Notes under the pieces: model-generated | The model's input: only the letters and a program-made list of their open reading frames with translations | Told to the model about the DNA's origin: nothing | Databases searched by the model: none | Virus record (IMG/VR): IMGVR_UViG_3300030107_006051 | Span: 1 to 20,402 of that record | Length of the DNA: 20,402 nucleotides | Reading direction: 5' to 3' (one strand) | Origin: a virus | Program-made: the position numbers and the translations under genes | Shown here: positions 2,458 through 20,402 of the stretch, one piece after another | Layout: each line of letters opens with the position of its first letter | How positions within the stretch are numbered: the stretch's first letter is position 1

Positions 2458-2826
2458 ATGGCAAAGACATATACACAACTTGTTGAATCTCTAAAAGATG
2501 TAGAGGAGTCTGAAGGTCCAATTTCAACTGTTGGTTCTGTTGGGGGAGGAATGATTGGCGAGCCCCCCGGTCCTAGAATTTTAGGTAAGAAGAAAAAAAA
2601 GAAGTGTGAAGTTTTTGCTGGCACAAATGTCTATGAAGTTTCTTCTGAAGTTTTTATGAAGTGTAAAGGCGAGAAGCCAAAGTATGCTCGTTATGCTAAA
2701 CATGTTGGCGAAGACGAAAATGGTCATGACATTAGAGAATATGGCTTGAAATATCCCAAGAAAGGGATTATAATTAAAGACTCAAAATATGGTACGATGA
2801 TGTATCTAAGAAGAAGGAAAAAGTAA
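2458..2826 (+). CDS. Small phage protein of unknown function (Gly-rich N-part, basic C-part)
   Basis: This 122-aa protein starts directly after the stop of the previous gene, with AAGG sequences about 10-15 bases upstream. Residues 1-45 hold a glycine/proline-rich segment and a run of six lysines (44-49). Residues 50-122 form a compact basic domain with Cys at 50 and 69 and the end YGTMMYLRRRKK. The C-terminal domain resembles, from memory, small proteins found in many marine phages, so it is likely a real conserved gene. No known enzyme motif is visible. The charge would suit nucleic-acid binding or a virion-interior role, but that is a guess. Its TAA overlaps the next ATG by one base. Confidence 0.75.
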   Translation: MAKTYTQLVESLKDVEESEGPISTVGSVGGGMIGEPPGPRILGKKKKKKCEVFAGTNVYEVSSEVFMKCKGEKPKYARYAKHVGEDENGHDIREYGLKYPKKGIIIKDSKYGTMMYLRRRKK

Positions 2827-3080
2827 TGATATCATTTATGGGAGTAGCAGCCAAGTTCGCTGCTGATTTTTTAAGTGGAATTGTTAATGGTGTTGTGAAT
2901 AAGTGGATGCAAATGAGAGAGTCCCGAAAGCGCGGAGAAGCGGAGGCAAAGAATGCAGCACATGAAGAAAACGCAAAGCGAAAAGCAAAGTCAGATAAGG
3001 TCTTGGAGAAGCCTGTCAAGAAAGGCAAGAGCCTTACCGATAGTATGCGTAAGCGCACTAAGTCTAAGTCTGCTGAGTAG
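2826..3080 (+). CDS. Small protein with hydrophobic N-terminus and charged helix; possible lysis-cassette partner
   Basis: This 84-aa protein has AAGGA at 2814-2818, 7 bases before the ATG. Residues 1-25 are hydrophobic to amphipathic (FMGVAAKFAADFLSGIVNGVV). The rest is a long, very charged helix rich in Lys, Glu and Ala. An N-terminal membrane anchor followed by a charged helix is the layout of an inner-membrane spanin (Rz-like), and the lipoprotein gene that begins inside it supports that reading. Against this, the hydrophobic segment contains Lys and Asp and is a poor transmembrane helix, and the C-terminus is strongly basic. It could equally be a small virion or DNA-binding protein. Confidence 0.6.
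   Translation: MISFMGVAAKFAADFLSGIVNGVVNKWMQMRESRKRGEAEAKNAAHEENAKRKAKSDKVLEKPVKKGKSLTDSMRKRTKSKSAE
2942..2946 (+). promoter_or_regulatory. Internal ribosome binding site for the overlapping lipoprotein gene
   Basis: GGAGG lies 6 bases before the ATG at 2953 and inside the preceding gene. It is the best available start signal for the overlapping frame and argues that the +1-shifted lipoprotein frame is deliberately translated. Confidence 0.6.
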
Positions 3081-3273
3081 TTGTGCGACGACTGGAGCCC
3101 CTGTACTAAAACCACCGGCATGTCCGTTATGGTCAGATGAAGCGATTGACGATTTAGAAATGATATTGACATTGCAAGAAGATGGTCAAATTGATATTGT
3201 TTCGTTAGAATATCAATTAGGAGAAAACCAAAGACATTGCGAGGCACTGGATGCATTTCTAGAAGAAGAGTAG
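2953..3273 (+). CDS. Putative outer-membrane lipoprotein, o-spanin (Rz1)-like, embedded out of frame
   Basis: This 106-aa protein starts inside the preceding gene in another frame and overlaps it by 128 bases. A long basic n-region (residues 1-27) is followed by a hydrophobic stretch and a lipobox L41-S42-S43-C44, which predicts lipidation at Cys44 and a mature protein of 63 residues. The mature part begins with a short Pro-containing stretch (ATTGAPVLKPPACPLW) and carries Cys57 and Cys96. Short lipoproteins that overlap or nest in an upstream gene are typical of phage o-spanins, which disrupt the outer membrane at lysis. The 27-residue n-region is longer than usual, so the in vivo start could be the ATG at 2962 or later. 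The o-spanin identity is inferred from architecture, not from sequence identity. No endolysin or clear holin is in the window. Confidence 0.65.
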   Translation: MQHMKKTQSEKQSQIRSWRSLSRKARALPIVCVSALSLSLLSSCATTGAPVLKPPACPLWSDEAIDDLEMILTLQEDGQIDIVSLEYQLGENQRHCEALDAFLEEE

Positions 3274-8516: not shown

Positions 8517-8573
8517 GGGGGGTAGAACGATTAAGTAAGTCCAGAGAGGCTCATCGTTCTGCCCCCCTTTTTT
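8517..8573 (+). terminator. Strong intrinsic terminator
   Basis: A 15-bp stem is formed by six G plus TAGAACGAT (8517-8531) and ATCGTTCTG plus six C (8553-8567), with one U-G pair and a 21-base loop. Six T follow, then A and five more T. This ends the unit that begins at the promoter at 7935 and separates it from the glycan cassette. Confidence 0.93.
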
Positions 8574-8595
8574 ATTTTTGGCGCATTTTTTCTGC

Positions 8596-8602
8596 CTATA
8601 TA
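8596..8602 (+). promoter_or_regulatory. Candidate late-type promoter before the glycan cassette
   Basis: CTATATA, followed by GTACT, lies 23 bases after the terminator T-run and 36 bases before the ATG at 8639. The only other strong candidate, CTAAATA at 1195, has similar spacing to its gene and is also followed by TAGTAC. Some promoter is needed here because the terminator should stop upstream transcription. There is no convincing -35 box. The assignment is tentative. Confidence 0.35.
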
Positions 8603-8638: not shown

Positions 8639-9622
8639 ATGTCAACAGTAGTTCCAGATAATTTTGAGTTTCAAATAAATCAAGAAGAATCCAAACCGCT
8701 GGGCGGAACGGAATTGATTTACAATCGTGTTATGGATTGTATTGATGATGAGTTAAAGGACGAGTTTATTATTGTCCCACAGCGTGTTCGTGAAGAACAT
8801 GTAAAAGATTCTCGCAAGAAGATTTTGTGGCTCCATGACCTTGCAGAAGACCCGGAGTCTGAGCACTTAAAGTATGAAGATAATCGGCAGATGTTTGAGA
8901 AGTTTGTTTTCCCGAGCAACTGGGCGCTTTGGGAGTTTCATCAAAAACTTGGAGTTCCTTTGGAGAACTCTATCGTTATTCCGAATTGTATTGAGCAGAT
9001 TCCCGTTCACGAAAAGCCCAAGGATCAAAAGAAGAAGATTATTTATTTTTCAACACCACACCGTGGTTTGAATATCCTTGAGTCTGTGATTCGCGTAATG
9101 GAAGATGCCCGTAACGATTTTGAGGTTGATGTATATTCCAGCTTCAAGTTATATGGTCGTGATCAACAAGATGAGCTTCCTGAGTTTAAGGAACTATATG
9201 AAAGGCTTGGCGAATTAAAGACTGTTAATTATCTCGGAACAGTTTCTAATGATGAAATTCGCAAAGCTCTGACGGAGACTCATATTCTTGCATACCCAAG
9301 CACTTATCTAGAAACGTCTTGTCTTGTTGCAATTGAAGCAATGGCAGCAGGATGTATGGCAGTTGTTCCCAATTGGGGCGCTCTCCCTGAAACTTGTGCG
9401 CGATTTGCTACGATGTATGATTACCATCCAAATCCATCACAACATGCCGCAGTTCATTATCATTATCTTTGTGGTGCTTTGAATAATTTTTGGAATGACA
9501 CTTCTCAAAGTATTTTAGAGATGCAGACATCATACTACAATTATTTTTACAGCATGGATATGTGTAAGTTTAAGTGGAACTCTTTATTGAGGGGATTACT
9601 TAATCGTGATACTGGTCAATGA
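8639..9622 (+). CDS. GT-B glycosyltransferase (GT4-like)
   Basis: This 327-aa protein starts at ATG 8639 behind a strong GAGGAGG (8626-8632). An in-frame TTG at 8621 precedes that RBS and is rejected. The N-terminal half holds LGGTE (21-25), the glycine-rich acceptor-side loop. KKIIYFSTPHRGL (132-144) opens the donor-binding domain. AYPSTYLETSCLVAIEAMAAG (218-238) is the E-x7-E signature (E225, E233) that holds the sugar-nucleotide in GT4 enzymes, followed by VVPNWGALPE. The donor sugar and acceptor cannot be read. It opens the glycan cassette right after a terminator and a possible promoter, and the next gene begins within its end. Confidence 0.88.
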   Translation: MSTVVPDNFEFQINQEESKPLGGTELIYNRVMDCIDDELKDEFIIVPQRVREEHVKDSRKKILWLHDLAEDPESEHLKYEDNRQMFEKFVFPSNWALWEFHQKLGVPLENSIVIPNCIEQIPVHEKPKDQKKKIIYFSTPHRGLNILESVIRVMEDARNDFEVDVYSSFKLYGRDQQDELPEFKELYERLGELKTVNYLGTVSNDEIRKALTETHILAYPSTYLETSCLVAIEAMAAGCMAVVPNWGALPETCARFATMYDYHPNPSQHAAVHYHYLCGALNNFWNDTSQSILEMQTSYYNYFYSMDMCKFKWNSLLRGLLNRDTGQ

Positions 9623-10127
9623 TGTTTTAGGTAAAGTTGAGCTTGAGAACTTATACAGTAGGTTAATTAATGACGAGTCTTGGTATCTTTCTAGAGGTAG
9701 TAAACCAACAGATTTAACCGAGGGTACATTTCTCGGGCTTGACGTTTATGATGAAAACACCATAAAAGAATTTTGGGCTGGGTATTTTGAATCTGTTCTT
9801 TTTAGGATTATAGATAAGTGTAGAGAACAGAATGGTGTGGAGTTGCCTGATAGAATTGAAAGGATTCATCTGGTAGCAAAGCAAGAGAATGCAAATGTAA
9901 GTTTCCATACGGATCATAATGATCCACGGGCAATATCCTTAATTGGGTTGCTGACACCGACATGGGAAACTGCATGGGGTGGAGAGTTTGTTTGTGGAGA
10001 CGAGGTTGTAAATCATACACCGGGTAGCTTTGTTTGTATTAGAAGCAATCAGTCTCACAATGGGTTTGGTCCGAACCAGAAGACTCCTTATTGGAGAATT
10101 GTGGTAAATTATATATTGATGGAGTAA
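9606..10127 (+). CDS. 2OG-Fe(II) oxygenase (prolyl-hydroxylase-like)
   Basis: This 173-aa protein probably starts at GTG 9606, with GAGGGG about 9 bases upstream inside the preceding gene, giving a 17-base overlap. The iron triad is H101-x-D103 (SFHTDHND) and H151 (QSHNGFGP). R164 (YWRIVVNYI) is the likely 2-oxoglutarate anchor. WGGEF (124-128) lies in the core beta strand. Length fits the minimal catalytic domain of the family. Substrates could be a proline or other residue on a virion protein, or a sugar or lipid intermediate. The neighbours make a glycan-linked job plausible, for example making a hydroxyl that is then glycosylated, but this is inference. Confidence 0.85.
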   Translation: MILVNDVLGKVELENLYSRLINDESWYLSRGSKPTDLTEGTFLGLDVYDENTIKEFWAGYFESVLFRIIDKCREQNGVELPDRIERIHLVAKQENANVSFHTDHNDPRAISLIGLLTPTWETAWGGEFVCGDEVVNHTPGSFVCIRSNQSHNGFGPNQKTPYWRIVVNYILME

Positions 10128-10129
10128 TA

Positions 10130-11053
10130 ATGAAAGCGTTAGTAACAGGTGGTGCTGGTTTTATTGGAAGCAATCTCGTAGATCAGTTGATTGATGATGG
10201 GCATGATGTGTTTATTTTCGATGATTTGTCCACAGGAAAAGTTGAGAATGTTAATTCAAAGGCTTGGTTTGATGTGCCTATTGACATTTCTTCCGATACG
10301 ATGCGTTGGTATATGAGTGAGTTTATGCGAGCCAATAAGATTGATACTATATTTCATCTGGCAGCAGCGGCACGGGTTCAGCCTTCTATCGAAGATCCTC
10401 TATCTTTTAATGAAACAAATGTAACAGGAACTTTGGCTCTTTTGAAGGCTGCTGTAGATAATAAGGTAAATAGGTTTATCTTTAGCTCGTCCTCTTCTGT
10501 ATATGGCGATGGTGCATATACACCAACAGATGAGAATCACCCACTTAATCCGATGAGCCCTTATGGTGCCCAGAAATTAATTGGTGAGATTTATTGTAAG
10601 CAATTTTATAGGACGTATGGATTGCGATCAACGTGCCTTCGCTACTTTAATGTATATGGTGAGCGACAGTTGCTTGAGGGTGCATACACTCTTGTAATGG
10701 GAAAGTTTGCACAACAAATTCTAGATGGTAAACGTATGACAATTCGTGGTGATGGAGAACAGCGACGAGATTTTACATATGTTGGTGATGCAGTCAAGGC
10801 AAATATCTTGGCAGCAACAACCGAAACTTCGGCAGCAACGCGAGGAAAGCCTATTAATATAGGTAGTGGGGACAATCGTTCGGTGAATGATATTGCTGAT
10901 ATGCTTGGGGGAAAGCGTGTTTATGTTGATCCTGTACTTGAACCCAAAGAAACTTTGGCTGATAACGGAGTCGCAAAATACTTACTAGGATGGGAACCAA
11001 CCGGAAATATTGAAAACTGGATTGAGGGTTATAAAAAGGAATTAGGAATATGA
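10130..11053 (+). CDS. NAD-dependent sugar epimerase/dehydratase (GalE-like SDR)
   Basis: This 307-aa protein starts at ATG 10130 behind GGAG (10121-10124). The open frame extends upstream, but only into the oxygenase gene. The Rossmann motif is TGGAGFIGS (6-14). SSSSVYG (120-126) holds the catalytic Ser/Thr region, and the SDR pair is Y145-x3-K149 (SPYGAQK). HLAAAARV and RYFNVYGERQ are typical of extended SDR sugar enzymes of the UDP-glucose/GlcNAc 4-epimerase type. It probably interconverts a nucleotide sugar at C4, supplying a donor to the transferases around it. It lacks extra dehydratase residues that I could identify, so 4-epimerase is favoured, and exact substrate is unknown. It ends in an ATGA overlap with the next gene. 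Confidence 0.9.
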   Translation: MKALVTGGAGFIGSNLVDQLIDDGHDVFIFDDLSTGKVENVNSKAWFDVPIDISSDTMRWYMSEFMRANKIDTIFHLAAAARVQPSIEDPLSFNETNVTGTLALLKAAVDNKVNRFIFSSSSSVYGDGAYTPTDENHPLNPMSPYGAQKLIGEIYCKQFYRTYGLRSTCLRYFNVYGERQLLEGAYTLVMGKFAQQILDGKRMTIRGDGEQRRDFTYVGDAVKANILAATTETSAATRGKPINIGSGDNRSVNDIADMLGGKRVYVDPVLEPKETLADNGVAKYLLGWEPTGNIENWIEGYKKELGI

Positions 11054-11973
11054 TTGATAAACTTGCAGTATATGTATTAACATATCATGAACATACGGCA
11101 GATCAACTAGAGCGATGCTTTTGGTCGATTGATAATCAACCAACCGAATTGGAATATAATGTAATTGTAAATTACAATTCAACCAAGCCTGAGCATTTTG
11201 AAACGCTTAAAAAGAATGTGCCTGAAGAGTATACACTCATCAAAACCAAGAGTGATGGATTTACTGGAAAGGGTACAAACTCTTGTCTTGATCATTATCT
11301 AGAAAATTATGAGGATAATGGTTGGACTCATATGTGTATCATTGACGGTGATGATTATTACTATCCAATGGCATTTGATATTTTAAATGAGCTTGAGCAG
11401 AAGTCTGATTTTGATTATCTTAGCGGAATGGCGCATCATGTAGATTCTTTGCGACCACTTCCACCACACCGCGATGACCCTAGAAAGGTTTATCCATATC
11501 AACCCAAGCGTTGGTTGTGGTCTTTTGTGGACAATCGCCTCCCAGTGTTTCCTTATATTTTTTGGAGTGGTGAACAAATTCCCGGCGGTGAAGTCACTCT
11601 TTGCATGTCTACGAAGGCAGTTAAGTCAGACATTCGCGCACTGGAGGGTCCGAATAGAGTGGATGACTACTTCTTTATGTTGAAGGCAATTATTGCACAC
11701 ATCAATAAGGAAATTAAATTCGTCAGCACAGATTGTAATGATATTTACGTTTACGACTGTACACAGGACAGTATCACTCGCGGAAATGATGACTTTGATG
11801 AAGAAAAGGGATGGCCCTTTGATAAGAATGGTCTTGTCTATGCAGAGAATAATAAGGAAGAGTACAAGATATTGGAAGGAGTTACTCGACAACATCTTCC
11901 TTATGTGACAATGCCTCAGATTTGGACGCATGAATTAAAATGTCAATATGCTGCCATGAACGAGCTTGAGTAA
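11050..11973 (+). CDS. GT-A glycosyltransferase (GT2-like)
   Basis: This 307-aa protein overlaps the epimerase by 4 bases (ATGA). The N-terminal strand is VYVLTYHEHTADQLERCFWSI, typical of GT-A nucleotide binding. The DxD-like metal site is IDGDDYYYP (D99, D101, D102). The later part has WSGEQIPGGEVTLCMS and an acidic ALEGPNRVDDYFF, where an ED-type catalytic base might sit (D217/D218). The length is normal for a single GT-A domain. No membrane segment is present, so it works in the cytoplasm. The donor and acceptor are not determined. It forms a stop-start pair (TAATG) with the next transferase. Confidence 0.82.
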   Translation: MIDKLAVYVLTYHEHTADQLERCFWSIDNQPTELEYNVIVNYNSTKPEHFETLKKNVPEEYTLIKTKSDGFTGKGTNSCLDHYLENYEDNGWTHMCIIDGDDYYYPMAFDILNELEQKSDFDYLSGMAHHVDSLRPLPPHRDDPRKVYPYQPKRWLWSFVDNRLPVFPYIFWSGEQIPGGEVTLCMSTKAVKSDIRALEGPNRVDDYFFMLKAIIAHINKEIKFVSTDCNDIYVYDCTQDSITRGNDDFDEEKGWPFDKNGLVYAENNKEEYKILEGVTRQHLPYVTMPQIWTHELKCQYAAMNELE

Positions 11974-12728
11974 TGACTACACATTTCAAGATAATCATAC
12001 CTGTATACAATGCGGAGTCATATATCCAGAACGCATTGATCAGTGTAATGAATCAGGATTACGATAACTTTGAGTGTATCATTACCGATGATTATTCCAC
12101 AGATAATACTGTAGACGTTGTTGATGACTTCATTTATGAGCATAAACTTGAAGATTATTTTCATCTTCGTAGGAATCCGAAAAGAATGTTTGCGCTGTAT
12201 AATCTACACTCTATGATTCTTGATTCGGAAGCAGATGTCGAAGACGTTTATATTACATTGGATGGCGATGATTGGCTAGAGGGTAGTGATGTCTTATCTA
12301 AGTTGGATCAGATTTATACAGATGAGCATTGTTGGTTAACTTATGGAAGTTATGTTATGTACCCAAGCGGTCAAGATTCGTCTTTTCATGTGAGCGAGTA
12401 TCCCCAAGAAATTATTGAATCTGGTGATTTCCGAAAAGATCCTAAATGGAGAGCAAGTCATCTTCGCACATTCAAACATAAACTTGCGAGGAGAATAAAG
12501 GAAGAGGATCTTCTGGATGAGTATGGGAACTATTATCGGTATGCTTATGATCAGGCACTTATGTTTCCGATGATGGAGATGGCGCGGGAACGTATACGAT
12601 TTATTCCTGATATTCTTTGTGTATATAATGATGAGAATCCAATGAACGTCCACAAGGTTGATCCAGAGGTTCAGATTCAGATGGCAAAGAAGATTCGTGA
12701 AAATCATGAGAAGAAGGAACGGTTATGA
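11973..12728 (+). CDS. Glycosyltransferase family 2 protein
   Basis: This 251-aa protein has a classic GT2 pattern. KIIIPVYNAESYIQNALISV (6-25) is the first beta-alpha unit. D39/D40 (IITDDYSTDNT) contact the nucleotide, and LDGDDWL (D97, D99, D100) is the metal DxD site. A C-terminal helical tail is highly charged (KKIRENHEKKERL). It begins at TAATG on the stop of the previous gene and ends in ATGA with the next, so three transferases are translated in tandem. No membrane helices are present. It may add one sugar of the same glycan. Confidence 0.92.
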   Translation: MTTHFKIIIPVYNAESYIQNALISVMNQDYDNFECIITDDYSTDNTVDVVDDFIYEHKLEDYFHLRRNPKRMFALYNLHSMILDSEADVEDVYITLDGDDWLEGSDVLSKLDQIYTDEHCWLTYGSYVMYPSGQDSSFHVSEYPQEIIESGDFRKDPKWRASHLRTFKHKLARRIKEEDLLDEYGNYYRYAYDQALMFPMMEMARERIRFIPDILCVYNDENPMNVHKVDPEVQIQMAKKIRENHEKKERL

Positions 12729-13645
12729 ATATCATATTTGATAATGTCAATTTCAATTCGACGGCAGGACCATATTGGTTTGCCAATAAGTTAAAATCTG
12801 CATTTGAGAAGAAGGGGCATGTAATCAATGAGGATGTGGATAAAATTCCTGATGCTCAGTTAAGTTTTGTGTCTGCTTCTTCTAGAATTACAGGAGTTCC
12901 TTTATTCCAAAGGCTTGATGGTATCTGGTATGATACTGACACAAATTATCAAAAGATGAATGAGCCAATTAAGAATACTTATGACGTTGCTGATGGTGTA
13001 ATCTTTCAATCTAAATTTGATCGTGATTTTATTGGTCATCATTTTGGGAATCATTCCAATTATACAATCATACACAATGGGTCTGATTTAGATTATGTAA
13101 AAGGCATTCCTCCGGCTACAGGTTTAGATGATGTTCCAACTGTATGGGTGTGTGCTTCTTCGTGGGTAAATGCTTCTGGCAATTTACGGCACAATAAAAG
13201 ATTGAATGAAAATATTCGATACTTTCAAGAGCATTCTTCTTCGTCTGATATTCTTTGTGTTGCTGGGGATGTTGGGTCTTACAAAAATCCAGATCCGGCA
13301 AGAATAATGTTTTTAGGTGATTTGGAAATTTTCTCTTTGATTTCTCTGTATAAGCGCGCTGACTGGTTTATTCACTTGGCTTCACAAGACCATTGCCCAA
13401 ATGTTGTGGTGGATGCCAAAGCGGCTGGGTGTCGAATTGTATGTGCGTCCTCTGGTGGGACAGCCGAGATCGCTGGGAAAGATGCTGTTGTAGTGACAGA
13501 TCCAAATGAGCATGGGTTTGCAGCATATAACTATAACGTACCAACTACTTTAGATTTCAGTAAGAAGTTGGATAATTGGAATGATGATGTGGATTTGTCT
13601 ATTGATTCTGTGGCAGATCAATATTTGACTTTTATGGAGAAGTGA
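12725..13645 (+). CDS. GT-B glycosyltransferase (GT4-like, variant signature)
   Basis: This 306-aa protein starts in the ATGA overlap. STAGPYWFANKL (12-23) is a loop like the GT4 acceptor-side glycine loop. VIFQSKFDRDFI and IIHNGSDLDYV (115-125) are linker and hinge pieces common in GT4 proteins. The C-terminal donor site reads HCPNVVVDAKAAGCRIVCASSGG (223-245), where the usual first Glu of E-x7-E is absent (Cys or Pro) and the second is D230. This weakens the classic signature, and many phage GT-B members carry such changes. Donor and acceptor are unknown. It is probably functional, as the Rossmann-like segments are intact. Confidence 0.8.
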   Translation: MNIIFDNVNFNSTAGPYWFANKLKSAFEKKGHVINEDVDKIPDAQLSFVSASSRITGVPLFQRLDGIWYDTDTNYQKMNEPIKNTYDVADGVIFQSKFDRDFIGHHFGNHSNYTIIHNGSDLDYVKGIPPATGLDDVPTVWVCASSWVNASGNLRHNKRLNENIRYFQEHSSSSDILCVAGDVGSYKNPDPARIMFLGDLEIFSLISLYKRADWFIHLASQDHCPNVVVDAKAAGCRIVCASSGGTAEIAGKDAVVVTDPNEHGFAAYNYNVPTTLDFSKKLDNWNDDVDLSIDSVADQYLTFMEK

Positions 13646-13646
13646 T

Positions 13647-14264
13647 ATGAAACGGGTAGATATACTAAATCATCTTATAAAAAGTAGAAATTATTCTTCT
13701 TATTTAGAGATTGGGATCTGGGGCGGGCGTTCCAATCCTAAGCACAACAATGTTGTTTGTGAGAAAAAAGTTGGCATTGATCCAGATACTAATTTTAAGG
13801 GAGATTCGATTCTTGGTTGGACCTCCGATCAATATTTTGATTTTTTGTATAATTATACGAATGGTGTGGAGTTTGATATTATTTTTATTGACGGTTTGCA
13901 TCTAGAAGAACAGGTGGATAAGGATATTGAAAATTCTCTAAATTTTTTGTCATCTGATGGTCTAATTGTAATGCACGATTGCTCCCCTCCAACAGAATGG
14001 CACGCAAGAGAAAATTATGATGGCGGTCAGTGGAATGGTACTGTATATAAATCGTTGGTTAAGTTGAGGTGTGAAAATCCAAATTTGTATATTGAGACTG
14101 TAGATACGGATTGGGGATGTGGGATCATTGACCCTTCTCGTACTCAAAATGTTTTTTCTCAATTTTCTAAGGAAGAGATTAATAATAATTTTGAGTTATT
14201 TGATGATCATAGAACAGAAATTTTAAATTTAATTTCTGTAGATGTTTTTTTGGAGAGATATTGA
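13647..14264 (+). CDS. SAM-dependent methyltransferase-like protein (class I, Methyltransf_24 type)
   Basis: This 205-aa protein starts at ATG 13647, with GGAG about 7-10 bases upstream, one base after the previous stop. Class I fold pieces are SYLEIGIWGGRS (18-29, motif I), VGIDPD (42-47, motif II acidic residue) and FDIIFIDGLHLEEQV (76-90, motif IV with D82 and H85), followed by LIVMHDC (106-112). Motif I has G-x-W-G-G rather than G-x-G-x-G. These features match small O-methyltransferases of glycan clusters. The gene is A+T-rich (many TTT, ATT and AAT codons). Sugar hydroxyl methylation is the likely job from context. The exact substrate cannot be read. Confidence 0.72.
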   Translation: MKRVDILNHLIKSRNYSSYLEIGIWGGRSNPKHNNVVCEKKVGIDPDTNFKGDSILGWTSDQYFDFLYNYTNGVEFDIIFIDGLHLEEQVDKDIENSLNFLSSDGLIVMHDCSPPTEWHARENYDGGQWNGTVYKSLVKLRCENPNLYIETVDTDWGCGIIDPSRTQNVFSQFSKEEINNNFELFDDHRTEILNLISVDVFLERY

Positions 14265-14265
14265 T

Positions 14266-14943
14266 ATGAAATTTATAGACGCGGCAGAAAATAAAAAAAT
14301 GGGAAGTAGTCATAAGTTTTTAAGTTATTTTAAAGATTATGATTTTCATTTTGGTCAGTTAGATAGAAATAAGCCATATAATATATTAGAAATTGGTGTA
14401 CAGCAAGGTGGTGGTTTGTGGACACTAAAAGAATATTTTCCAAATTCATCTATTACAGGATTGGATATTGATAATAATTGCAAGCAATATGAAAGTGAAG
14501 AGAATGATATTGTGGTTTTTATAGGATCACAAACGGATGAGGGTTTGTTGGAAAAAATATCTAAAGAGAGGGGTTCTTTTGATATTATAATAGATGATGG
14601 TGGTCATACCATGAAACAGCAGAAGATCAGTTTTTTTAAATTGTTTCCTTTGTTGAATGATGATGGTATATACATTATTGAAGATTTGCATACATCATAT
14701 TGGCCTTCATTTGGTGGTGGTATAAACAATGAAGAAACAATGATGAGTACGTTAAAGCAACTATCTGATAAAAGCACTTCAAGTTGGGCATCTAGGAATG
14801 ATAGGGCTGATAATAATAAAAATAGTTTAAAGTTTGATTATTTTGATGGACATATAGATTCAGTTCATTTTCATGCTTCTATTTGCTTTATATACAAGAA
14901 AGAATATAACGACAAAACTGGAAGATCCACAGTAAGGATATGA
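14266..14943 (+). CDS. Class I SAM O-methyltransferase, sugar/macrolide-sugar type
   Basis: This 225-aa protein starts at ATG 14266, with TTGGAGAG about 8 bases upstream; the longer frame to 14242 runs into the previous gene. Motif I is LEIGVQQGGGLWTL (41-54), motif II is LDIDNNC (66-72), and the metal/catalytic motif is FDIIIDDGGHTMKQQ (105-119, D110, D111, H114). YIIEDLHTSYWPSFGGG (136-152) is the other conserved run. These motifs are those of sugar O-methyltransferases such as the tetracenomycin rhamnose 2'-O-methyltransferase and MycE. It probably methylates a sugar hydroxyl, with Mg helped by the DDGGH motif. This gene is among the most A+T-rich in the window (15/60 G+C at 14281-14340), a possible sign of recent acquisition. 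Confidence 0.88.
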   Translation: MKFIDAAENKKMGSSHKFLSYFKDYDFHFGQLDRNKPYNILEIGVQQGGGLWTLKEYFPNSSITGLDIDNNCKQYESEENDIVVFIGSQTDEGLLEKISKERGSFDIIIDDGGHTMKQQKISFFKLFPLLNDDGIYIIEDLHTSYWPSFGGGINNEETMMSTLKQLSDKSTSSWASRNDRADNNKNSLKFDYFDGHIDSVHFHASICFIYKKEYNDKTGRSTVRI

Positions 14944-14947
14944 CAAA

Positions 14948-15814
14948 ATGATGACAGAAAATATTGATATTATACTTCCGACCGCTGGGAAAAAATCTCG
15001 CTCAATTACAATGCTTGCTGTTCGTTCTTTTTTAGAGTTTAGTGAGGGTTTTAATTTTAGAATTTTTGTTGTCGAAAATTCTAATGATAATTCTTATCGG
15101 GATGATGTTTTGGGATTGTCTGAAAATGTTTTTTGGATTCAAAATCCAATACAATCTCAAGATGAATATGCTGGGTCACTTGCCAACGCAAAAGGGTTAG
15201 AGCGGGGATTAGAAGAGGTTGATTCGGAATATGTTTTTTTATGTCATAATGATGTAATTGCGTGCCATCAAAACTGGATGAGGTATTTATTTAACAAAGT
15301 AAAAAAAGAAGGATATAGCCTGTGCGGCTTTCAGCATGATGAACACCCAGATCGGATATTTGCTGCTCATATTTCTGGAATACTCACTAAAACAGAAATC
15401 GCGAAGACGGTATCCTTGCGTCCTTCTTCTGGATCAATTCCTATGGATGTTGGAGATTCTTTGACAAAATATTGTCGTGACAATGATTTGAAATATTTTA
15501 TTTGCGAGAATACAAAAATTGATCATCTAGCAAATCCAAAAATTAACAAGTGGTTTGATGGGACATATATAGAAAATCACAGAAACGGTAGTGACTGGTA
15601 TGAAAAAAATGTTCCGTCGCCGTTTAAATCTTCATCGTCTGTAAAATCTTTTGATGATGATCTTAATGTTGTTTGGATGCACTTGGGTAGAGGAACACCA
15701 AAGGCTCGCGGAAATTACTCAAAGGCAAATAATAAAAATAAAACATCAGCAGATCAATGGACTATTTTTGCAGATGAATATATATTTAATGGAGGGCAAA
15801 CCTGTGAGAAGTGA
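14948..15814 (+). CDS. GT-A-like glycosyltransferase
   Basis: This 288-aa protein has the GT-A beginning IDIILPTAGKKSRSITMLAVRSFLEF (6-31) and a nucleotide-binding strand FRIFVVENSND (37-47). The metal-site position reads FLCHNDVIACHQNW (97-110), an HND variant of DxD. Residues after 130 include CGFQHDEHPDRIFAAHISG and a tail with WMHLGRGTPKARG (244-256). Either ATG 14948 or ATG 14951 can start it; AAGGAT lies about 10 bases upstream. Its end overlaps the next gene by 11 bases. Family assignment is moderate because only the N-terminal half shows clear GT-A features. It shows the same X-N-D site as the transferase at the right edge. Confidence 0.7.
   Translation: MMTENIDIILPTAGKKSRSITMLAVRSFLEFSEGFNFRIFVVENSNDNSYRDDVLGLSENVFWIQNPIQSQDEYAGSLANAKGLERGLEEVDSEYVFLCHNDVIACHQNWMRYLFNKVKKEGYSLCGFQHDEHPDRIFAAHISGILTKTEIAKTVSLRPSSGSIPMDVGDSLTKYCRDNDLKYFICENTKIDHLANPKINKWFDGTYIENHRNGSDWYEKNVPSPFKSSSSVKSFDDDLNVVWMHLGRGTPKARGNYSKANNKNKTSADQWTIFADEYIFNGGQTCEK
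15791..15796 (+). promoter_or_regulatory. Ribosome binding site fixing a GTG start
   Basis: GGAGGG lies 7 bases before the GTG at 15804, inside the end of the preceding gene. The longer open frame (to 15651) has no comparable signal and would overlap the previous gene by 164 bases. The GTG therefore decides the start. Confidence 0.75.
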
Positions 15815-16457
15815 ACTTGTTGAAGACATTGATGATTTGGTAGTTCCTGAAGAATATCAGAAAATTTGGGATGATATTAATTTGCCAATCCAAACCCAAA
15901 AAGGCATGGATCACAATCTATCAGAAGAGGCTCTACTTACTTGCCTAGATCAACTTTCTAGGCGGGGGTATTATTTGGTATCCATCGCGGAACAATTTGG
16001 TGCGAAGAATATTGCAGAGGTTGGCACCGCACAGGGTTGGCAATTCTATACGTTTGCTCATTATGCCAAAAAGGTTGGCGGTTATGTTTGGAGTTGCGAT
16101 CCACGCGATGTTCGGGACAGAAACTATGTTAAAGAATATGCGGACGTAACAGATTTCGTTTCTGGGACAAGTGAAGAGATGGCAGAGACAATTAAGTTTT
16201 CTGGTGAAAAGATTGACATGTTTTATATTGATGGTTGGCATGAACAGGGTTGGGTATTACAGGACGTAGAGCGTCTTAAAGAATTTCAGTCGGATAGTCC
16301 TATTTGGATTTTTGACGATTATGATGAGCGGTTTGGTTGCTCTTTGGATATAGATGAAATCTGCGAGAGGATGCCGGATCATTATGTATACCATGTGGGA
16401 AATGCTGCGAGTGGTCAACCAAACCATCAGGTTGCAGTTTTTGGGAGAATTGAATGA
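15804..16457 (+). CDS. SAM-dependent methyltransferase-like protein (Methyltransf_24 type)
   Basis: This 217-aa protein starts at GTG 15804. The N-terminal third (to about 65) is helical. Class I fold pieces follow: NIAEVGTAQGWQFYTF (69-84, motif I), VWSCDPRDV (95-103, motif II with D99), and IDMFYIDGWHEQGWVLQDVE (137-156, motif IV with D143 and H146), then IWIFDDYDERFGC (167-179). The D-G-W-H with a following Asp-rich strand matches the small O-methyltransferases in this cassette at 13647 and 14266, so they may share an ancestor. Its composition is clearly less A+T-rich than 14266, so it may have a different origin. The target is likely a glycan hydroxyl; it ends in an ATGA overlap with the next gene. 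Confidence 0.78.
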   Translation: MRSELVEDIDDLVVPEEYQKIWDDINLPIQTQKGMDHNLSEEALLTCLDQLSRRGYYLVSIAEQFGAKNIAEVGTAQGWQFYTFAHYAKKVGGYVWSCDPRDVRDRNYVKEYADVTDFVSGTSEEMAETIKFSGEKIDMFYIDGWHEQGWVLQDVERLKEFQSDSPIWIFDDYDERFGCSLDIDEICERMPDHYVYHVGNAASGQPNHQVAVFGRIE

Positions 16458-17422
16458 ATATTCTATTCTATTCTAGTCATGATAATTTGTCTGTTGGCTC
16501 TTATAGAATTTGGGTTAGGGATTTGAATAGATATTTTAATCATGTGGGTATATCTTCTCAGATTTCAATTGGCAAACTTCCCGACATTAATGGGTTTGAT
16601 GTAGTTATATTTGGTAAGGGGGATCATGTCAAAGCGCAGGAAGTTAAAAAAGCCAACCCAAATAAAAAGGTTGGTGTCATTAATCTAGCAAGTGATGTGA
16701 AGGATCTTGATGTAGATTTTATAATTGTCGGCTCGATTGAAGAGCAGGCAAGTCATTCTTCATACGATAATGTATTCTTATTTCCTTTGATTGAGGATAT
16801 GTATCAAAATAATATTATGTATAAGGAGCATATCTCTTCTGATAAGCTGACAGTTGGGTTTCATGGTAATGTTACTCATACCGCAAATTTTTTAAAAGGT
16901 TTAAATGGAGCATTGCAAAGATTTTCAGAACACTATCCAGTAGAATTTGTGGTTATAACATCTGCACCAGTGAATCAATCTTTACTTCCAAAAGGAGTTA
17001 GTGTTTCTGTAGAACCTTGGATTTATGAAAATATGCCCAATCGCATTTTATCATTTGATCTTGGTGTTGTTCCAAATGCAGTAATCGGAGGGGTTCATTC
17101 TGAGTCTGTGACTGAGGGATTATTTTCTACGGACTATGAGATGAGATTTAAGAACAAATCAAATGCGGGGCGAGCATTTGTGTTCCATCAGTTGGGGATT
17201 CCTGTTGTGGCTGATATTACTCCCAGTAATTTTCATGTTATGGGAAATCCAGATTGTGGATATTTGGTTGCAAATGAAGAAGGCTGGTATAAATCATTAT
17301 TGAAATTGTCTGACTTTAGGGAGAGGCAGAGAATAGCTGATAATGCCAAGGTAGAATTTGACCGGCTATATAATCCATATGATTGGGCGAAGCGCCTTTA
17401 TCACAACATAAAGGAAATATAA
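16454..17422 (+). CDS. GT-B-like glycosyltransferase
   Basis: This 322-aa protein starts in ATGA with the previous gene. It opens with a GT-B-type strand MNILFYSSHDNLSVGSYR, followed by INGFDVVIFGKGDHVKAQEV. TVGFHGNVTHT (133-143) marks the start of the donor domain, as in GT4 enzymes. GRAFVFHQLGIPVVADITPS (239-258) is the C-terminal strand-loop that usually holds the donor, though the E-x7-E signature itself is missing. The N-terminal domain is short. I call it GT-B from fold cues rather than from catalytic residues. It could also be a non-catalytic relative. Its TAA overlaps the next ATG by one base. Confidence 0.7.
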   Translation: MNILFYSSHDNLSVGSYRIWVRDLNRYFNHVGISSQISIGKLPDINGFDVVIFGKGDHVKAQEVKKANPNKKVGVINLASDVKDLDVDFIIVGSIEEQASHSSYDNVFLFPLIEDMYQNNIMYKEHISSDKLTVGFHGNVTHTANFLKGLNGALQRFSEHYPVEFVVITSAPVNQSLLPKGVSVSVEPWIYENMPNRILSFDLGVVPNAVIGGVHSESVTEGLFSTDYEMRFKNKSNAGRAFVFHQLGIPVVADITPSNFHVMGNPDCGYLVANEEGWYKSLLKLSDFRERQRIADNAKVEFDRLYNPYDWAKRLYHNIKEI

Positions 17423-18168
17423 TGGAAAAGGGTATATTGTACATTGCATTTGGTGATAATTTTTTAAAGGAGCTTACGCTGTCTGCCGAGTCGGTTAAGA
17501 AGTTTTGTCCTGATCTTCACATCACAGTGTTTTGTGATAAGCCAATTGAGTCTGAGTTTATAGATGATTGTAGAATGATTGAAGCCAGACATCTAAGACC
17601 AAAGATTGACTATATTATGCACTCTCCTTACGAGAGAACTTTGTTCTTAGACACCGACACTATCATCGACTATGACATTAGTGACATGTTTGACATCCTT
17701 GATAACTTTGATATTGCGTTAGCCCATGATCTTGCGAGAAAACGAAAGAAATATTCTGATTCAATACCAGAGTATGGCGCAATTCCATATTCTTTCTCTG
17801 AATTGAATACGGGTGTAATTGCGTTTAAGAAGAACGAAAAAACACATCTTCTATGGAATCGTTGGCAGGAAAATTTTTATAAGTGGTATGAGCATTCTCC
17901 TTGGGATCAGCCTTCTTTTCGGGTTTCCTTATGGCAGACCACTCTAGAAGATGATCTGAAGTTGTATGTGTTTCCTGTTGAATATAATATCCGAAGTAAA
18001 GCAAATCGTGAGAAGAATAGAAGAATGCATGATGAATTTGGTGATGAACATCTAACTCCTCGCATTTATCATATGCACGCAGATACCAGAATTAATCAGG
18101 GTGTCTATGAGATTAATAGTGTGGATGAGGCTTTGGATATTTGTAAAAAGAATTTTTTGGAGTATTAA
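17422..18168 (+). CDS. GT8-like nucleotide-sugar transferase
   Basis: This 248-aa protein starts at TAATG with AAGGAA about 6 bases upstream; the longer frame to 17383 lies inside the previous gene. ILYIAFGDNFLKELTLSAES (5-24) is the GT-A first strand and helix. ERTLFLDTDTIIDYDISDMF (71-90) carries the D77-x-D79 metal motif in the position seen in GT8 (glycogenin/galactosyltransferase-type) enzymes. ELNTGVIAF (127-135) is the conserved Asn-Thr-Gly loop, and PWDQPSF is another typical motif. These are retaining transferases that use UDP-Glc or UDP-Gal donors. An epimerase upstream could supply UDP-Gal. The closeness to a true GT8 assignment is moderate. Confidence 0.8.
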   Translation: MEKGILYIAFGDNFLKELTLSAESVKKFCPDLHITVFCDKPIESEFIDDCRMIEARHLRPKIDYIMHSPYERTLFLDTDTIIDYDISDMFDILDNFDIALAHDLARKRKKYSDSIPEYGAIPYSFSELNTGVIAFKKNEKTHLLWNRWQENFYKWYEHSPWDQPSFRVSLWQTTLEDDLKLYVFPVEYNIRSKANREKNRRMHDEFGDEHLTPRIYHMHADTRINQGVYEINSVDEALDICKKNFLEY

Positions 18169-18169
18169 A

Positions 18170-18760
18170 ATGACCGTTCCGATGATGCACAAAAAAGAAT
18201 ATGGATTTATTGAGTCGCATTTAAAAAATGATATGACTATGTTGGAATGGGGCTCCGGTGGCAGCACGTTATATTTTCCGAAATTTGTCAAATCATATTA
18301 CAGTATAGAACATGATCAGGACTGGTATGACAAGATAAAGCCTCAGATTTCAGATAATGTTAATTATTACCATATTCCCAGTAGCGTTCCGTGGGAGCGA
18401 CCTTCGGACTGGAGGGATAATCCAGCGCATCATAATACGCCAGTTGAATTGTTTTATGATTATATAGATTATGTAGATGAGTTGGACGTTGAATTTGATT
18501 GTATTTTAGTCGATGGTCGATGTCGTGTTCATTGTGCAATTAAAGCCCTGTCATACCTAAAAGATGATGGTGTTTTATTTTTTCATGATTTTTATCCAAG
18601 GAAAAAATATGGATACTATGATGTTCTATACTACTATGATCCGATTGGGGGAGTGTCTGATACTACCCAGACGGTTATTGGGTTAAAAAAGAAGGATATA
18701 TCTTTATACAGAAGTGTCGATTCGATTACCGAAGAATTGGAAATGTTTCATGACTTATGA
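18170..18760 (+). CDS. Methyltransferase-like Rossmann protein
   Basis: This 196-aa protein starts at ATG 18170 with TTGGAG about 7 bases upstream; the open frame extends only into the previous gene. TMLEWGSGGSTLYF (23-36) is a class I motif I (G28-S-G-G), SIEHDQDWY (45-53) holds the motif II acidic residue E47, and FDCILVDGRCRVHCA (109-123) gives motif IV with D115, then VLFFHDFYP. The VDGR piece with a following Arg resembles small methyltransferases found beside glycosyltransferases. SAM binding is probable but unproven, since no residues specific to a substrate class are visible. It overlaps the next gene by 11 bases. Confidence 0.68.
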   Translation: MTVPMMHKKEYGFIESHLKNDMTMLEWGSGGSTLYFPKFVKSYYSIEHDQDWYDKIKPQISDNVNYYHIPSSVPWERPSDWRDNPAHHNTPVELFYDYIDYVDELDVEFDCILVDGRCRVHCAIKALSYLKDDGVLFFHDFYPRKKYGYYDVLYYYDPIGGVSDTTQTVIGLKKKDISLYRSVDSITEELEMFHDL

Positions 18761-19484
18761 GAATCTTATAAAAGATAAAACCGTTGCCATCGTGGGTCCA
18801 GCTAAGTATATGGAAAATCTTCCTTTGGGAGAAGAGATAGATAATCATGATTTGGTTGTTCGTGTTAACAGAAGCATAGAAACCATAGACGACTATTGTG
18901 ATAACATAGGATCTATGGCTGATATATTATACACATGCCTTATAGAAACAGCACAAAATGCCGGAAGGTTGGATGTTGATGAATTGATGAATACATATAA
19001 AGTAAAGTATGTGTGCGCTCCTCCGGTATCTGATATGAAGGGGCTATCCACAAAAACAAAAATACATCATATGGCAAATCCTAAAACAGTTGAGAGAATA
19101 AAAAAGAATATACCGTTCAGGGTCGTTGACCACGAATTCCATACAAGTCTTGCAGAGAGCGTTGATTGCCGACCGAATACAGGATTTTTGGCTATCTACG
19201 ACCTTTTGCGGTTTAAGCCAAAGTGTCTTTCAATCTATGGTTTCAGTTTTTATCTTGATGGATTTATATCTGGATGTAAAGATGGCATAGAACAGGAAAA
19301 GGGTGTCACTGCTGAAGAGTTTGGTCATATGGCTTTTGTGTCAAAACGTCATGTTCAAAAAAACATGTGGGGATACGCCAAGAAAACTCTTATAGATAAT
19401 CCTAGAGTTCAATTGGATAGTGTGTTGAGTAAGATATTGAGACTTGATGAATTGAGTAAGGATGAATTTTGTGAAAAAACTTAA
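18750..19484 (+). CDS. GT29 sialyltransferase-like protein
   Basis: This 244-aa protein starts at ATG 18750, 11 bases inside the previous gene; the longer frame to 18714 lacks an RBS. Residues 12-41 (VAIVGPAKYMENLPLGEEID, then HDLVVRVNRS) follow the pattern of the GT29 L-sialylmotif: a hydrophobic strand, G, a Gly before ID, then HD-x-V-x-R-x-N. Residues 138-169 (VDCRPNTGFLAIYDLLRF, then LSIYGFSFYL) follow the S-motif: P-x-T-G-x-x-A and a later Y/I-G-F. A conserved-looking HM at 193-194 lies in the region of the later family motifs. If active, it would transfer a CMP-linked sugar such as sialic acid. No CMP-sialate synthetase is in the window, so the donor must come from elsewhere or differ. 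Matches are to the motif pattern, not to a search. Confidence 0.72.
   Translation: MTYENLIKDKTVAIVGPAKYMENLPLGEEIDNHDLVVRVNRSIETIDDYCDNIGSMADILYTCLIETAQNAGRLDVDELMNTYKVKYVCAPPVSDMKGLSTKTKIHHMANPKTVERIKKNIPFRVVDHEFHTSLAESVDCRPNTGFLAIYDLLRFKPKCLSIYGFSFYLDGFISGCKDGIEQEKGVTAEEFGHMAFVSKRHVQKNMWGYAKKTLIDNPRVQLDSVLSKILRLDELSKDEFCEKT
19457..19461 (+). promoter_or_regulatory. Ribosome binding site favouring a GTG start
   Basis: AAGGA ends 9 bases before GTG 19471 but directly abuts the alternative ATG at 19462, which is therefore a poor start. The GTG also gives a standard GT-A beginning (KKLKIFIVTYKRSD). Confidence 0.55.
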
Positions 19485-20402
19485 AATTTTTATTGTTACC
19501 TATAAGCGTTCTGATGTGTTGAATGAGTTGATTGATAATATTTTTGAATCTGATTTTAAAGATGTTCCTAATACAGAAGTTAATATCATCAATAACCATT
19601 CAAATTTTAATCTTACAAGTGAGCATCAAAACAAAATTGGTAATGTATATCATAACATGTGTCGTCCTGATTGGTCAGGAGCAAATTTAGGAGAAAATTG
19701 GAATCAGGCTCTAATGTTAGGATTTAAATCGCTTATAAATCCAGATTCCGAATATGTAGTTACTCTACAAAATGATTGTGTTTTGCATCATGATTGGTAT
19801 TCTCATCTGATGACCATGCATCAAAAGTATAATTTTATTGCGGGTGAATTTGGTGATAATGTAGTGTCGTATACACCAGAGGCAGTTAGACGAATTGGTC
19901 TTTGGGATGAACAATTCTCAGGCGGGGGACATAGAGAAGCTGATTATTATTTAAGGGCATTAAGATTTAATAAGCAACATTCTTTGATTAACGATACAAT
20001 GCATGGTCGTGTTTGGAATCCCAATGATGATTATTTGACTCTAGATATTACTGAAAATAGAAACATTAAAAGTGTTGATGGAAAGATGAAACGTCGCCCT
20101 GATAACAAAGAACAAGAAAGAATATGGACAGGTATTCGTGGTGGTGTTATGAATGAATACAACACACAATATTTTTATTGGAAGTGGGCAAACACACATC
20201 ATGTGGAATTGACAAAGAGTAAGTGGATTAAGAACTGGCCTATTGATCTTGTGGAAGATCCGCCTTTGATAAGAAAAAAAATTGTGTTTATGAAATATCC
20301 ATATTTTGAAAAAGATATATACAGACTTACAGAGAAGGGATATTGGATTCCTTCTGGTTTTGGTCAACAACATTGGAATGAATGGGAAGATAGGGTTAGA
20401 AC
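19471..20402 (+). CDS. GT-A-like glycosyltransferase, cut by the window edge
   Basis: The frame from GTG 19471 stays open to the last base, so the 3' end lies outside the window (310 codons seen). It overlaps the previous gene by 14 bases. The N-terminal strand-helix is KKLKIFIVTYKRSDVLNEL (2-20), a GT2/GT-A beginning. The metal-site position reads VVTLQNDCVLHHDW (96-109), an N-D variant of DxD, much like HND in the transferase at 14948. GGGHREADYYLRALRF (151-166) holds an acidic motif where GT2 enzymes have the catalytic ED, reading E156, D158. Beyond about residue 200 it is a basic, aromatic-rich domain (TGIRGGVMNEY, FYWKWANTHHV) that I do not recognise. Confidence 0.8.
   Translation, partial: MKKLKIFIVTYKRSDVLNELIDNIFESDFKDVPNTEVNIINNHSNFNLTSEHQNKIGNVYHNMCRPDWSGANLGENWNQALMLGFKSLINPDSEYVVTLQNDCVLHHDWYSHLMTMHQKYNFIAGEFGDNVVSYTPEAVRRIGLWDEQFSGGGHREADYYLRALRFNKQHSLINDTMHGRVWNPNDDYLTLDITENRNIKSVDGKMKRRPDNKEQERIWTGIRGGVMNEYNTQYFYWKWANTHHVELTKSKWIKNWPIDLVEDPPLIRKKIVFMKYPYFEKDIYRLTEKGYWIPSGFGQQHWNEWEDRVR

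Follow-up and report, generated by a model that had tools for sequence, protein, structure and literature searches.

A packed cassette of glycosyltransferase and methyltransferase genes at a fixed site in T4-like marine phages, possibly for a methylated glycan

Gene content of the cassette

The subject of this analysis is a cassette of sugar-type genes carried by IMG/VR virus record IMGVR_UViG_3300030107_006051, a 20,402-base fragment of an uncultured virus known from environmental DNA; the whole stretch is called the window here. From position 8639 to the contig end lie 15 packed open reading frames (ORFs) on one strand, the contig stopping inside the last of them (Table 1). Nine resemble glycosyltransferases (GTs) and four methyltransferases (MTs), and the remaining two are an epimerase and a 2-oxoglutarate (2OG)-Fe(II) oxygenase. 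An earlier note on this DNA had counted fourteen genes, eight of them glycosyltransferase-like, and its count has to be raised accordingly; its four methyltransferase-like genes, one epimerase and one 2OG oxygenase in 8639-20402 were recovered by ORF and family searches. The one-strand run joined by overlaps or short gaps that it described was also seen, with successive junctions of −17, 2, −4, −1, −4, 1, 1, 4, −11, −4, −1, 1, −11 and −23 bases.

Eight of the 15 ORFs pass the curated Pfam cut-off (GTs at 8639, 11973, 12725, 17422 and 18750, MTs at 13647 and 15804, and the epimerase at 10130), and the other seven have weaker assignments (9606, 11050, 14266, 14948, 16454, 18170 and 19462). GT2c (14948) is the least certain assignment of the block. 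The sequence of GTx falls in no Pfam and no PHROG family. The structure prediction with a Foldseek search that the earlier note had proposed as a check was run for GTx among the cassette products: an AlphaFold2 model built from 19 sequences had a mean predicted local distance difference test (pLDDT) score of 89.7, and its Foldseek/VIA matches were the GT4 enzymes BshA, HepE and TarM with Z about 25 (BshA at the top with Z 25.5). GTx is thus predicted to have a GT-B fold of the GT4 type. Three chance-looking PDB sequence matches were discarded, namely Trimerelysin for GTx, MSS116 for GT29 and a TonB receptor for MT4. The idea that the 2OG enzyme is tied to a hydroxyproline-type acceptor was set aside; the 2OG gene is absent from several relatives. 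The PHROG family matched by this ORF, phrog_274, is labelled “DNA endonuclease V”, yet the ORF matches 2OG-Fe(II) oxygenase models, and the label may be wrong.

Table 1. Features of the window and of related loci (L) and records (G). Positions are those of the window unless a locus is named.
Feature	Position	Strand	Support or remarks
Conserved intrinsic-terminator hairpin with T run, ahead of cassette	8517-8567	+	fold −28.7 kcal/mol
Candidate extended −10 box TGCCTATATA (TGnCTATATA)	8593-8602	+	read by eye; 10 of 13 leaders keep TATATA
GT4a, GT4-type glycosyltransferase, anchor gene of the site	8639-9622	+	PF00534 1.3e-11; phrog_2170 6e-38
2OG-Fe(II) oxygenase-like	9606-10127	+	PF13640 (2OG-FeII_Oxy_3) 5.6e-4, below cut-off; phrog_274 1.8e-13
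NAD-dependent UDP-glucose 4-epimerase-like	10130-11053	+	PF01370 2.4e-61; PDB 6dnt 1e-55; 4zrm (UDP-glucose 4-epimerase) 9e-55
GT2a, divergent GT2-like	11050-11973	+	PF00535 E=0.074; 7-member family profile: one weak PDB glycosyltransferase match, E=0.014
GT2b, glycosyltransferase family 2	11973-12728	+	PF00535 8e-18
GT4b, GT4-type glycosyltransferase	12725-13645	+	PF00534 3e-8
MT1, Methyltransf_24, IDGLH	13647-14264	+	PF13578 4e-9; L047 homologue 49% identical
MT2, predicted MycE/TylE-type sugar O-methyltransferase	14266-14943	+	PDB 3ssm 2.9e-26; 8ia9 6e-17; D111, H114, E139-D140
GT2c, GT-A-like protein	14948-15814	+	NTP_transf_3 E=0.005; phrog glycosyltransferase E=0.026; no PDB match
MT3, Methyltransf_24 O-methyltransferase, IDGWH	15804-16457	+	PF13578 6e-13
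GTx, predicted GT-B/GT4-fold glycosyltransferase	16454-17422	+	predicted structure; outside Pfam and PHROG families
GT8-like nucleotide-diphospho-sugar transferase	17422-18168	+	PF03407 4.9e-7, over cut-off
MT4, methyltransferase with DGRC	18170-18760	+	PF13578 (Methyltransf_24) 6.7e-4; PDB 3cvo “methyltransferase-like” 3.4e-5
GT29 (sialyltransferase family)-like transferase	18750-19484	+	PF00777 5e-8, 33.1 vs 23 bits cut-off; profile with L040 homologue matches ST6Gal1 6.8e-4
GT2d, GT2-like, runs off contig	19462-20402	+	PF00535 1.9e-4, 21.8 vs 23.3 bits, just below cut-off
Complete block G001 (L007 and L046)			19.5 kb, 25 ORFs
Complete block G002/G003 (L047)			10.9 kb, 13 ORFs
Complete block G009 (L040 and L056)			22.8 kb, 29 ORFs
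Nearly complete block L067			9.6 kb, 11 ORFs
Flank gene, 377 amino acids	L046 18439-19569		phrog_11903 2.7e-66
Fused methyltransferases, 413-422 amino acids, four lineages	L080 2953-4221; L097 4756-5997; L112 3659-4909; L045 9389-10636
IRX15/GXM-family proteins	L096 7721-8308; L100 6944-7576
Split in reductase gene	L030 4030-4594; L031 and L033 3691-4912		same place in all three

A colinear core with changing methyltransferases

Loci resembling the cassette were fetched by scans with MT3, GTx and GT29 (8, 22 and 16 loci, overlapping), so the presence of these three genes is biased among them, while gene order is not. Seven core genes were considered (GT2b, GT4b, MT3, GTx, GT8, GT29 and GT2d). 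At least two of them occur in 19 of 22 loci, the other three holding one, and the order of the window is kept in 18 of the 19, with L111 as the exception. The recurring order, GT2-GT4-[MT]-MT3-GTx-GT8-GT29-GT2, is found in divergent phage contigs: the core genes are 28-66% identical, the close relatives L040 and L108 aside, and the 19 GTx sequences fall into 14 clusters at 80% identity. MT3 is the methyltransferase kept in most relatives that have the core, and homologues of GT2d (39-54% identical) lie directly downstream of or near GT29. No relative of MT3, GTx or GT8 was found in a collection of 50,697 phage records, and an MT3 alignment run against bacterial and archaeal genome contigs gave 124 pattern matches and no relative in this pattern-limited search.

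The methyltransferases set into this order vary. Ten loci, including the window, have both GT4b and MT3, and in eight a methyltransferase lies between the two: MT1 and MT2, together with GT2c, in the window, a separate Methyltransf_11 type in L040 and L108, a Methyltransf_11 type fused to MT3 in L080, L097, L112 and L045, and an FkbM type in L096. L095 and L110 have no methyltransferase there. Near GT8, MT4 is found in the window and a protein of the IRX15/GXM type in L096 and L100 (5.8e-31 and 2e-32); the GT8-GT29 interval holds no gene in L040, L080 and L107. The IRX15/GXM family, which we take to be that of the plant xylan 4-O-methyltransferases, occurs in four of 20 related records and none of 14 control genomes, and the GXM-type protein has no match in annotated phages. 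Because these slots differ among colinear loci, unrelated methyltransferases appear to come and go while the backbone order stays.

Methyltransferase motifs

A D-G-x-H motif had been reported in the earlier note for three of the four methyltransferases. It is present in MT1 (IDGLH, 13647), MT3 (IDGWH, 15804) and MT2 (DDGGH, 14266), and the further step of reading it as the mark of one methyltransferase family is ruled out by identities: MT1 is only 20-30% identical to MT2, MT3 and MT4, and 20-49% to the set of seven aligned proteins that includes these three. MT4 (18170) has DGRC in place of the motif and no His, and thus lacks the catalytic His of the MycE/TylE type. MT2 is homologous to 3ssm across the catalytic domain (residues 17-219), and its Methyltransf_24 match falls below the Pfam cut-off. 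Its D111, H114 and D140 align with D275, H278 and D304 of MycE at equal spacing, and in MycE the two Asp residues are described as metal ligands and the His as the base (PMC10117803). Given this alignment, the D-G-x-H of MT2 can be read as a catalytic motif, and MT2 is predicted to be a MycE/TylE-type sugar O-methyltransferase acting on a sugar hydroxyl. The broader suggestion of several sugar-type methyltransferases within a glycan-building cassette is supported.

GT29 and its probable sugar donor

The GT29-like enzyme passes the curated cut-off of its family. The 16 GT29 loci came from an alignment search of viral contigs; a single-query search of these contigs gave no match. A GT29 homologue is present in eight of the 20 related records, and in all eight a cytidylyltransferase (PF02348, CTP_transf_3) lies within 1 kb, compared with two of the 12 records lacking GT29 (Fisher p=7e-4, with the records partly related and not all independent). 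An aldolase of the HpcH/HpaI type follows in G009, L096 and L100, and one of the HMGL type in L080 and L107. The window ends before the stretch where cytidylyltransferase and aldolase genes would lie. Since both adjoin GT29 in relatives, a cytidine monophosphate (CMP)-activated ulosonic acid made by an aldolase route fits, and the glycan is probably capped by such a residue, an identity that we infer from the gene neighbourhood.

A fixed site with an empty state

Of 36 loci retrieved with the reductase encoded left of the cassette, 18 are at 82% identity or more (L008, L009 and L015 being the same phage). In this set, 14 loci extend into the region that comes next, and GT4a is present in every one of them; the other four end earlier. 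Among the remaining reductase loci it is present in one of 18. A search with GT4a by itself retrieved a single locus. The gene that follows GT4a varies among relatives, being the epimerase, GT2a or the 2OG gene. In near relatives the block sits between primase-thyX-nrdJ-ruvC and a gene for a 377-amino-acid protein, the flank gene, which is followed by rnh; the complete blocks span about 10-23 kb. The earlier note had raised the question of whether related phages keep the block in the same place, and in near relatives the site is indeed held. It had also named relatives lacking most of the genes as evidence against its reading. This does not describe the relatives as a whole, G009 keeping 10 of the 15 genes in order, and it does describe some of them: G002/G003 keep few, the Rhizobium and Sinorhizobium phages keep only the first gene, and content is highly variable.

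The flank gene was surveyed separately in 17 loci, of which L116 and L123 lack upstream sequence and were left out of the counts. A sugar-type block lies upstream in 13 of the other 15 (about 9 distinct phages); in several of the 13 the gene adjoining the flank belongs to no family, and the call of a block rests on the genes before it. The two viral loci without sugar genes upstream are L124 and L125. The two genes flanking the block, then rnh, are shared with Rhizobium phage RHph_I1_18, Sinorhizobium phage phiM12 and Caulobacter phage Cr30, in which GT4a is 33-36% identical. In contrast to the 10-23 kb of the marine relatives, RHph_I1_18 and phiM12 hold nothing between them, so that GT4a adjoins the flank gene, with rnh next; when 180 ORFs were searched with a profile built on five marine flank proteins, the flank genes of RHph_I1_18 and phiM12 matched at 5e-35 and 8e-51. 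In Cr30 the interval holds three genes, of which two are heptose-type, and in phage OC it holds three small ones. The flank gene belongs to a conserved phage family to which no function is assigned, and it accompanies GT4a also at sites that have no further sugar gene. Its predicted structure (mean pLDDT 64.6, below 50 in the C-terminal third) allowed no function to be read.

Selection and missing membrane functions

Selection was estimated from nonsynonymous to synonymous rate ratios (dN/dS, Nei-Gojobori) in nine comparisons covering eight of the 15 cassette genes, with dS saturated in some. Against G004, dN/dS is 0.03-0.13 for GT4a, GT2a, GT2b, GT4b and MT3; against G009, it is 0.05 for MT3, 0.04 for GT8, 0.18 for GT29 and 0.25 for GTx. 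Three backbone genes give 0.07-0.09. The eight cassette genes are under purifying selection, and together with homologues in the same order in relatives these values (0.03-0.25) make the gene set more than a chance assembly. Identity to G004 jumps between neighbours (GT2a 95%, MT3 93%, GTx 41%), and such sharp differences between adjoining genes suggest recombination.

None of 110 cassette ORFs has two or more hydrophobic segments, and eight have a single marginal one (an ORF of G009 and the epimerase of G001 were scored only in part). Membrane and precursor functions were sought in 20 related records (1.58 Mb), which are fragments and so limit what an absence means, with 14 genomes as a control. 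The initiating transferase (Bac_transf, PF02397) was found in 0 of 20 records and 9 of 14 controls, Wzx (PF01943) in 0 and 13, and the GtrA flippase (PF04138) in 0 and 7; Wzy_C (PF04932) had no match over the cut-off in the 20 records, with one antisense match below it, and was found in 9 controls. A Wzx/Wzy O-antigen pathway was therefore not found in these fragment records. Nor does the cassette have the form of a GtrABC seroconversion system: GtrA is absent from the window ORFs and the 20 records, and no ORF among the 110 is polytopic. The cassette is far larger than a modifier of the GtrABC type, in line with the remark in the earlier note that it is much more than an O-antigen modifier for superinfection exclusion normally needs.

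Phage, host and leader

The genes left of the cassette encode a T4 gp61-type primase, ThyX, a class II ribonucleotide reductase and a RuvC-like protein. The whole window has no near-identity match in the phage collection. The reductase is closest to those of Roseobacter-group phages (~60%), and the primase to those of cyanophage, Pelagibacter and Methylophilales T4-like phages (about 40-42%). T4-like baseplate-type genes lie on an 84 kb contig of a relative with the same site, where the ORFs were read by eye. This is a virus of marine bacteria and, judged by these genes, a T4-like myovirus, and the cassette can be placed among the multi-gene lipopolysaccharide (LPS) or glycan clusters of T4-like marine phages. 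The gene order that it has in common with the Rhizobium, Sinorhizobium and Caulobacter phages suggests that the host is likely alphaproteobacterial.

The terminator hairpin, which lies between GT4a and the gene before it, shows pairing-preserving changes on both sides in nine of 19 pairs among eight aligned relatives (two identical, two nearly so); a simple hairpin scan with a loop limit of 8 does not list it. A strong ribosome site lies between the candidate −10 box and GT4a. A scan for sigma-70 promoters gave 51 matches with 52.5 expected by chance. The cassette probably forms a separate transcription unit. A search for TATAAATA was uninformative on expression timing. For phage Aeh1, the sequence CTAAATA is reported to be the late box (PMC1524935). 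It occurs 24 times in a relative of 80 kb (the G003 contig; L049, L053, L054), and 10 of these occurrences lie 80 bases or less upstream of an ORF start, making it a candidate for the late promoter in this group of phages.

Proposed product and alternatives

The data show the gene families, their order, the site, the selection and the missing membrane parts, and they support a working and self-contained pathway in the cytosol for a methylated glycan; the identities of the sugars, the acceptor and the benefit are inferred. The following route can be proposed. The cassette would be a functional operon whose enzymes assemble, within the cytosol of the infected cell, a single complex glycan bearing methyl groups. 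The chain would grow in a fixed order by the action of soluble glycosyltransferases, and several class-I O-methyltransferases would methylate set positions, with MT2 using a bound metal and an active-site His to modify a sugar hydroxyl. The GT29-like enzyme would add a CMP-activated residue, probably an ulosonic acid (sialic or 3-deoxy-D-manno-octulosonic acid (KDO)-like), whose donor-synthesis genes, beside GT29 in relatives, would lie past the contig end. The acceptor would be a phage protein in the cytosol and the product a virion glycan, like those of chlorovirus PBCV-1, mimivirus and some mycobacteriophages. With no lipid-carrier start and neither flippase, polymerase nor ligase alongside the cassette, a phage protein seems the most likely acceptor. 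For this reading, a functional cytosolic operon for a methylated glycan that is most likely attached to a virion protein, we would put the chances of being right and wrong about level.

The alternative taken most seriously is remodelling of the host surface, in which host LPS core, O-antigen or capsule would be extended or methylated in the cytosol and exported by the host, giving a superinfection block or an otherwise altered cell. The glycosyltransferases of the LPS core are soluble as well and might rely on export by the host, so that host LPS as the target would be compatible with the lack of membrane genes. This point weighs against a virion glycan, as do several others: relatives carry LPS-type enzymes (KdsA-like, WbqC, PIG-L and FdtA), and the Cr30 site its heptose-type genes; the nearest solved relative of MT3 by profile is a tRNA 5-hydroxyuridine methyltransferase (1.8e-4), so its substrate class may differ from sugar; and CTAAATA occurs neither in the leader nor on the + strand of the cassette, a hint only, with about one occurrence expected by chance. 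Host remodelling is moreover the published reading for the LPS-type genes of pelagimyophages and cyanophages (PMC7029224; PMC7824862), the sugar-precursor enzymes of relatives are of LPS and O-antigen types, and the leader resembles a non-late transcription unit. Against it stand the lack of Wzx, Wzy/WaaL, initiating transferase or GtrA over the cut-off in the 20 records, and a whole 10-23 kb pathway with its own nucleotide-sugar synthesis, which exceeds the needs of a host-chain modifier. On balance, host remodelling is a real possibility that we think will more probably prove wrong than right.

The other alternatives carry much less weight. One is DNA hypermodification, in which the transferases would glycosylate modified bases against host restriction. 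T4-like phages are known to hypermodify their DNA, and T4 beta-glucosyltransferase falls in the fold class of GTx (Foldseek rank 44). The ThyA/dCMP-hydroxymethylase family (PF00303) was found in none of the 20 records and in nine of the 14 controls (other base-modifying routes were not searched), and to our knowledge base glycans need far less than nine transferases, an epimerase and a sialyltransferase-like enzyme; this explanation is thus quite improbable. An equally slim prospect is a small glycosylated, methylated secondary metabolite, a kind of product that Iyer et al. propose for certain cyanophage clusters containing 2OG and methylase genes (PMC7824862). The nearest characterised relatives of MT2 methylate macrolide sugars, which suits such a product, but a Pfam scan found no aglycone-making genes in the window or the complete relative blocks, and chain-building transferases dominate. 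For the LPS clusters of cyanophages it has been suggested that they may be filler DNA without function, serving headful packaging (PMC3037559); here this would account for content that varies widely between relatives and for an ORF truncated in G003, one of two near-identical contigs, and intact in the other, G002. Purifying selection, a core colinear at 28-66% identity and tight operon packing argue so strongly against filler that we hardly credit it.

If the product is a virion glycan, the locus could be viewed, speculatively and with considerable doubt, as a phage “serotype locus”, a counterpart in prokaryotic viruses of bacterial O-antigen loci: a fixed site with a conserved virion-glycan backbone line, an antigenic type changed by the exchange of unrelated sugar methyltransferases at fixed slots, and a sialic-acid-like cap made by the phage.

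Relation to known systems

Glycan clusters of this general kind are already in print for T4-like marine phages, in which large sets of sugar genes were recognised years ago. The LPS clusters of T4-like cyanophages (P-SSM2, S-SM2, S-SSM7) and pelagimyophages likewise hold large, variable sets of glycosyltransferase and sugar-modifying genes, with O-methyltransferases in some (Iyer et al., PMC7824862). The published sites are VrlC-gp14 in pelagimyophages and near hli03/phoH in cyanophages, whereas the present site runs from nrdJ/ruvC to the flank gene beside rnh, and the cassette lacks the setting of the pelagimyophage host-recognition cluster (VrlC-gp14 with tail-fibre genes). The clusters of PBCV-1 and mimivirus (R132) are also virus-encoded and combine mainly soluble transferases with sugar O-methyltransferases. 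R132 is of the MycE type with the same catalytic residues as MT2 and is proposed to methylate the virion-fibril glycan (PMC10117803); the PBCV-1 transferases are described as mostly soluble and early-expressed, and its capsid glycan carries two O-methyls (PMC9614988). These are eukaryotic giant viruses with known acceptors, whereas for the present cassette a phage protein is a putative acceptor. The mycobacterial prophage McProf has a GT gene followed directly by a MycE-like MT, near terminase genes. In mycobacteriophages, according to work attributed to Freeman et al. in 2023, phage-encoded glycosyltransferases reportedly act on capsid and tail proteins. The mycobacteriophage system differs in having few genes, compared with fifteen or more here, and has no sequence link to the cassette beyond the MT.

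As far as the literature searches went, what is new is a site that also occurs empty, a core that stays colinear, methyltransferases that are exchanged, and GT29 paired with a cytidylyltransferase: this arrangement of site, core and methylation slots was not found described, and for methyltransferases of the FkbM or glucuronoxylan type in phage clusters of this sort no on-topic report came up. The cited work leaves open whether the sugar clusters of marine T4-like phages are working pathways, filler or tools for host LPS. A defined site with an empty state, an enzyme order, selection and methylation-only slots make the question testable on any cultured relative. If the virion-glycan reading is true, some ocean phages carry self-made, variable sugar coats, which could affect adsorption, grazing and antibody-like recognition.

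Other features

Two overlapping small genes in different frames lie at 2826-3273 of the window, the second with a lipoprotein-like signal (LSSC), and from a reading of the sequence they resemble a nested spanin (Rz/Rz1) pair. In three related contigs the reductase gene is split after residue 330 by 565 or 1,222 bases, possibly an intron.

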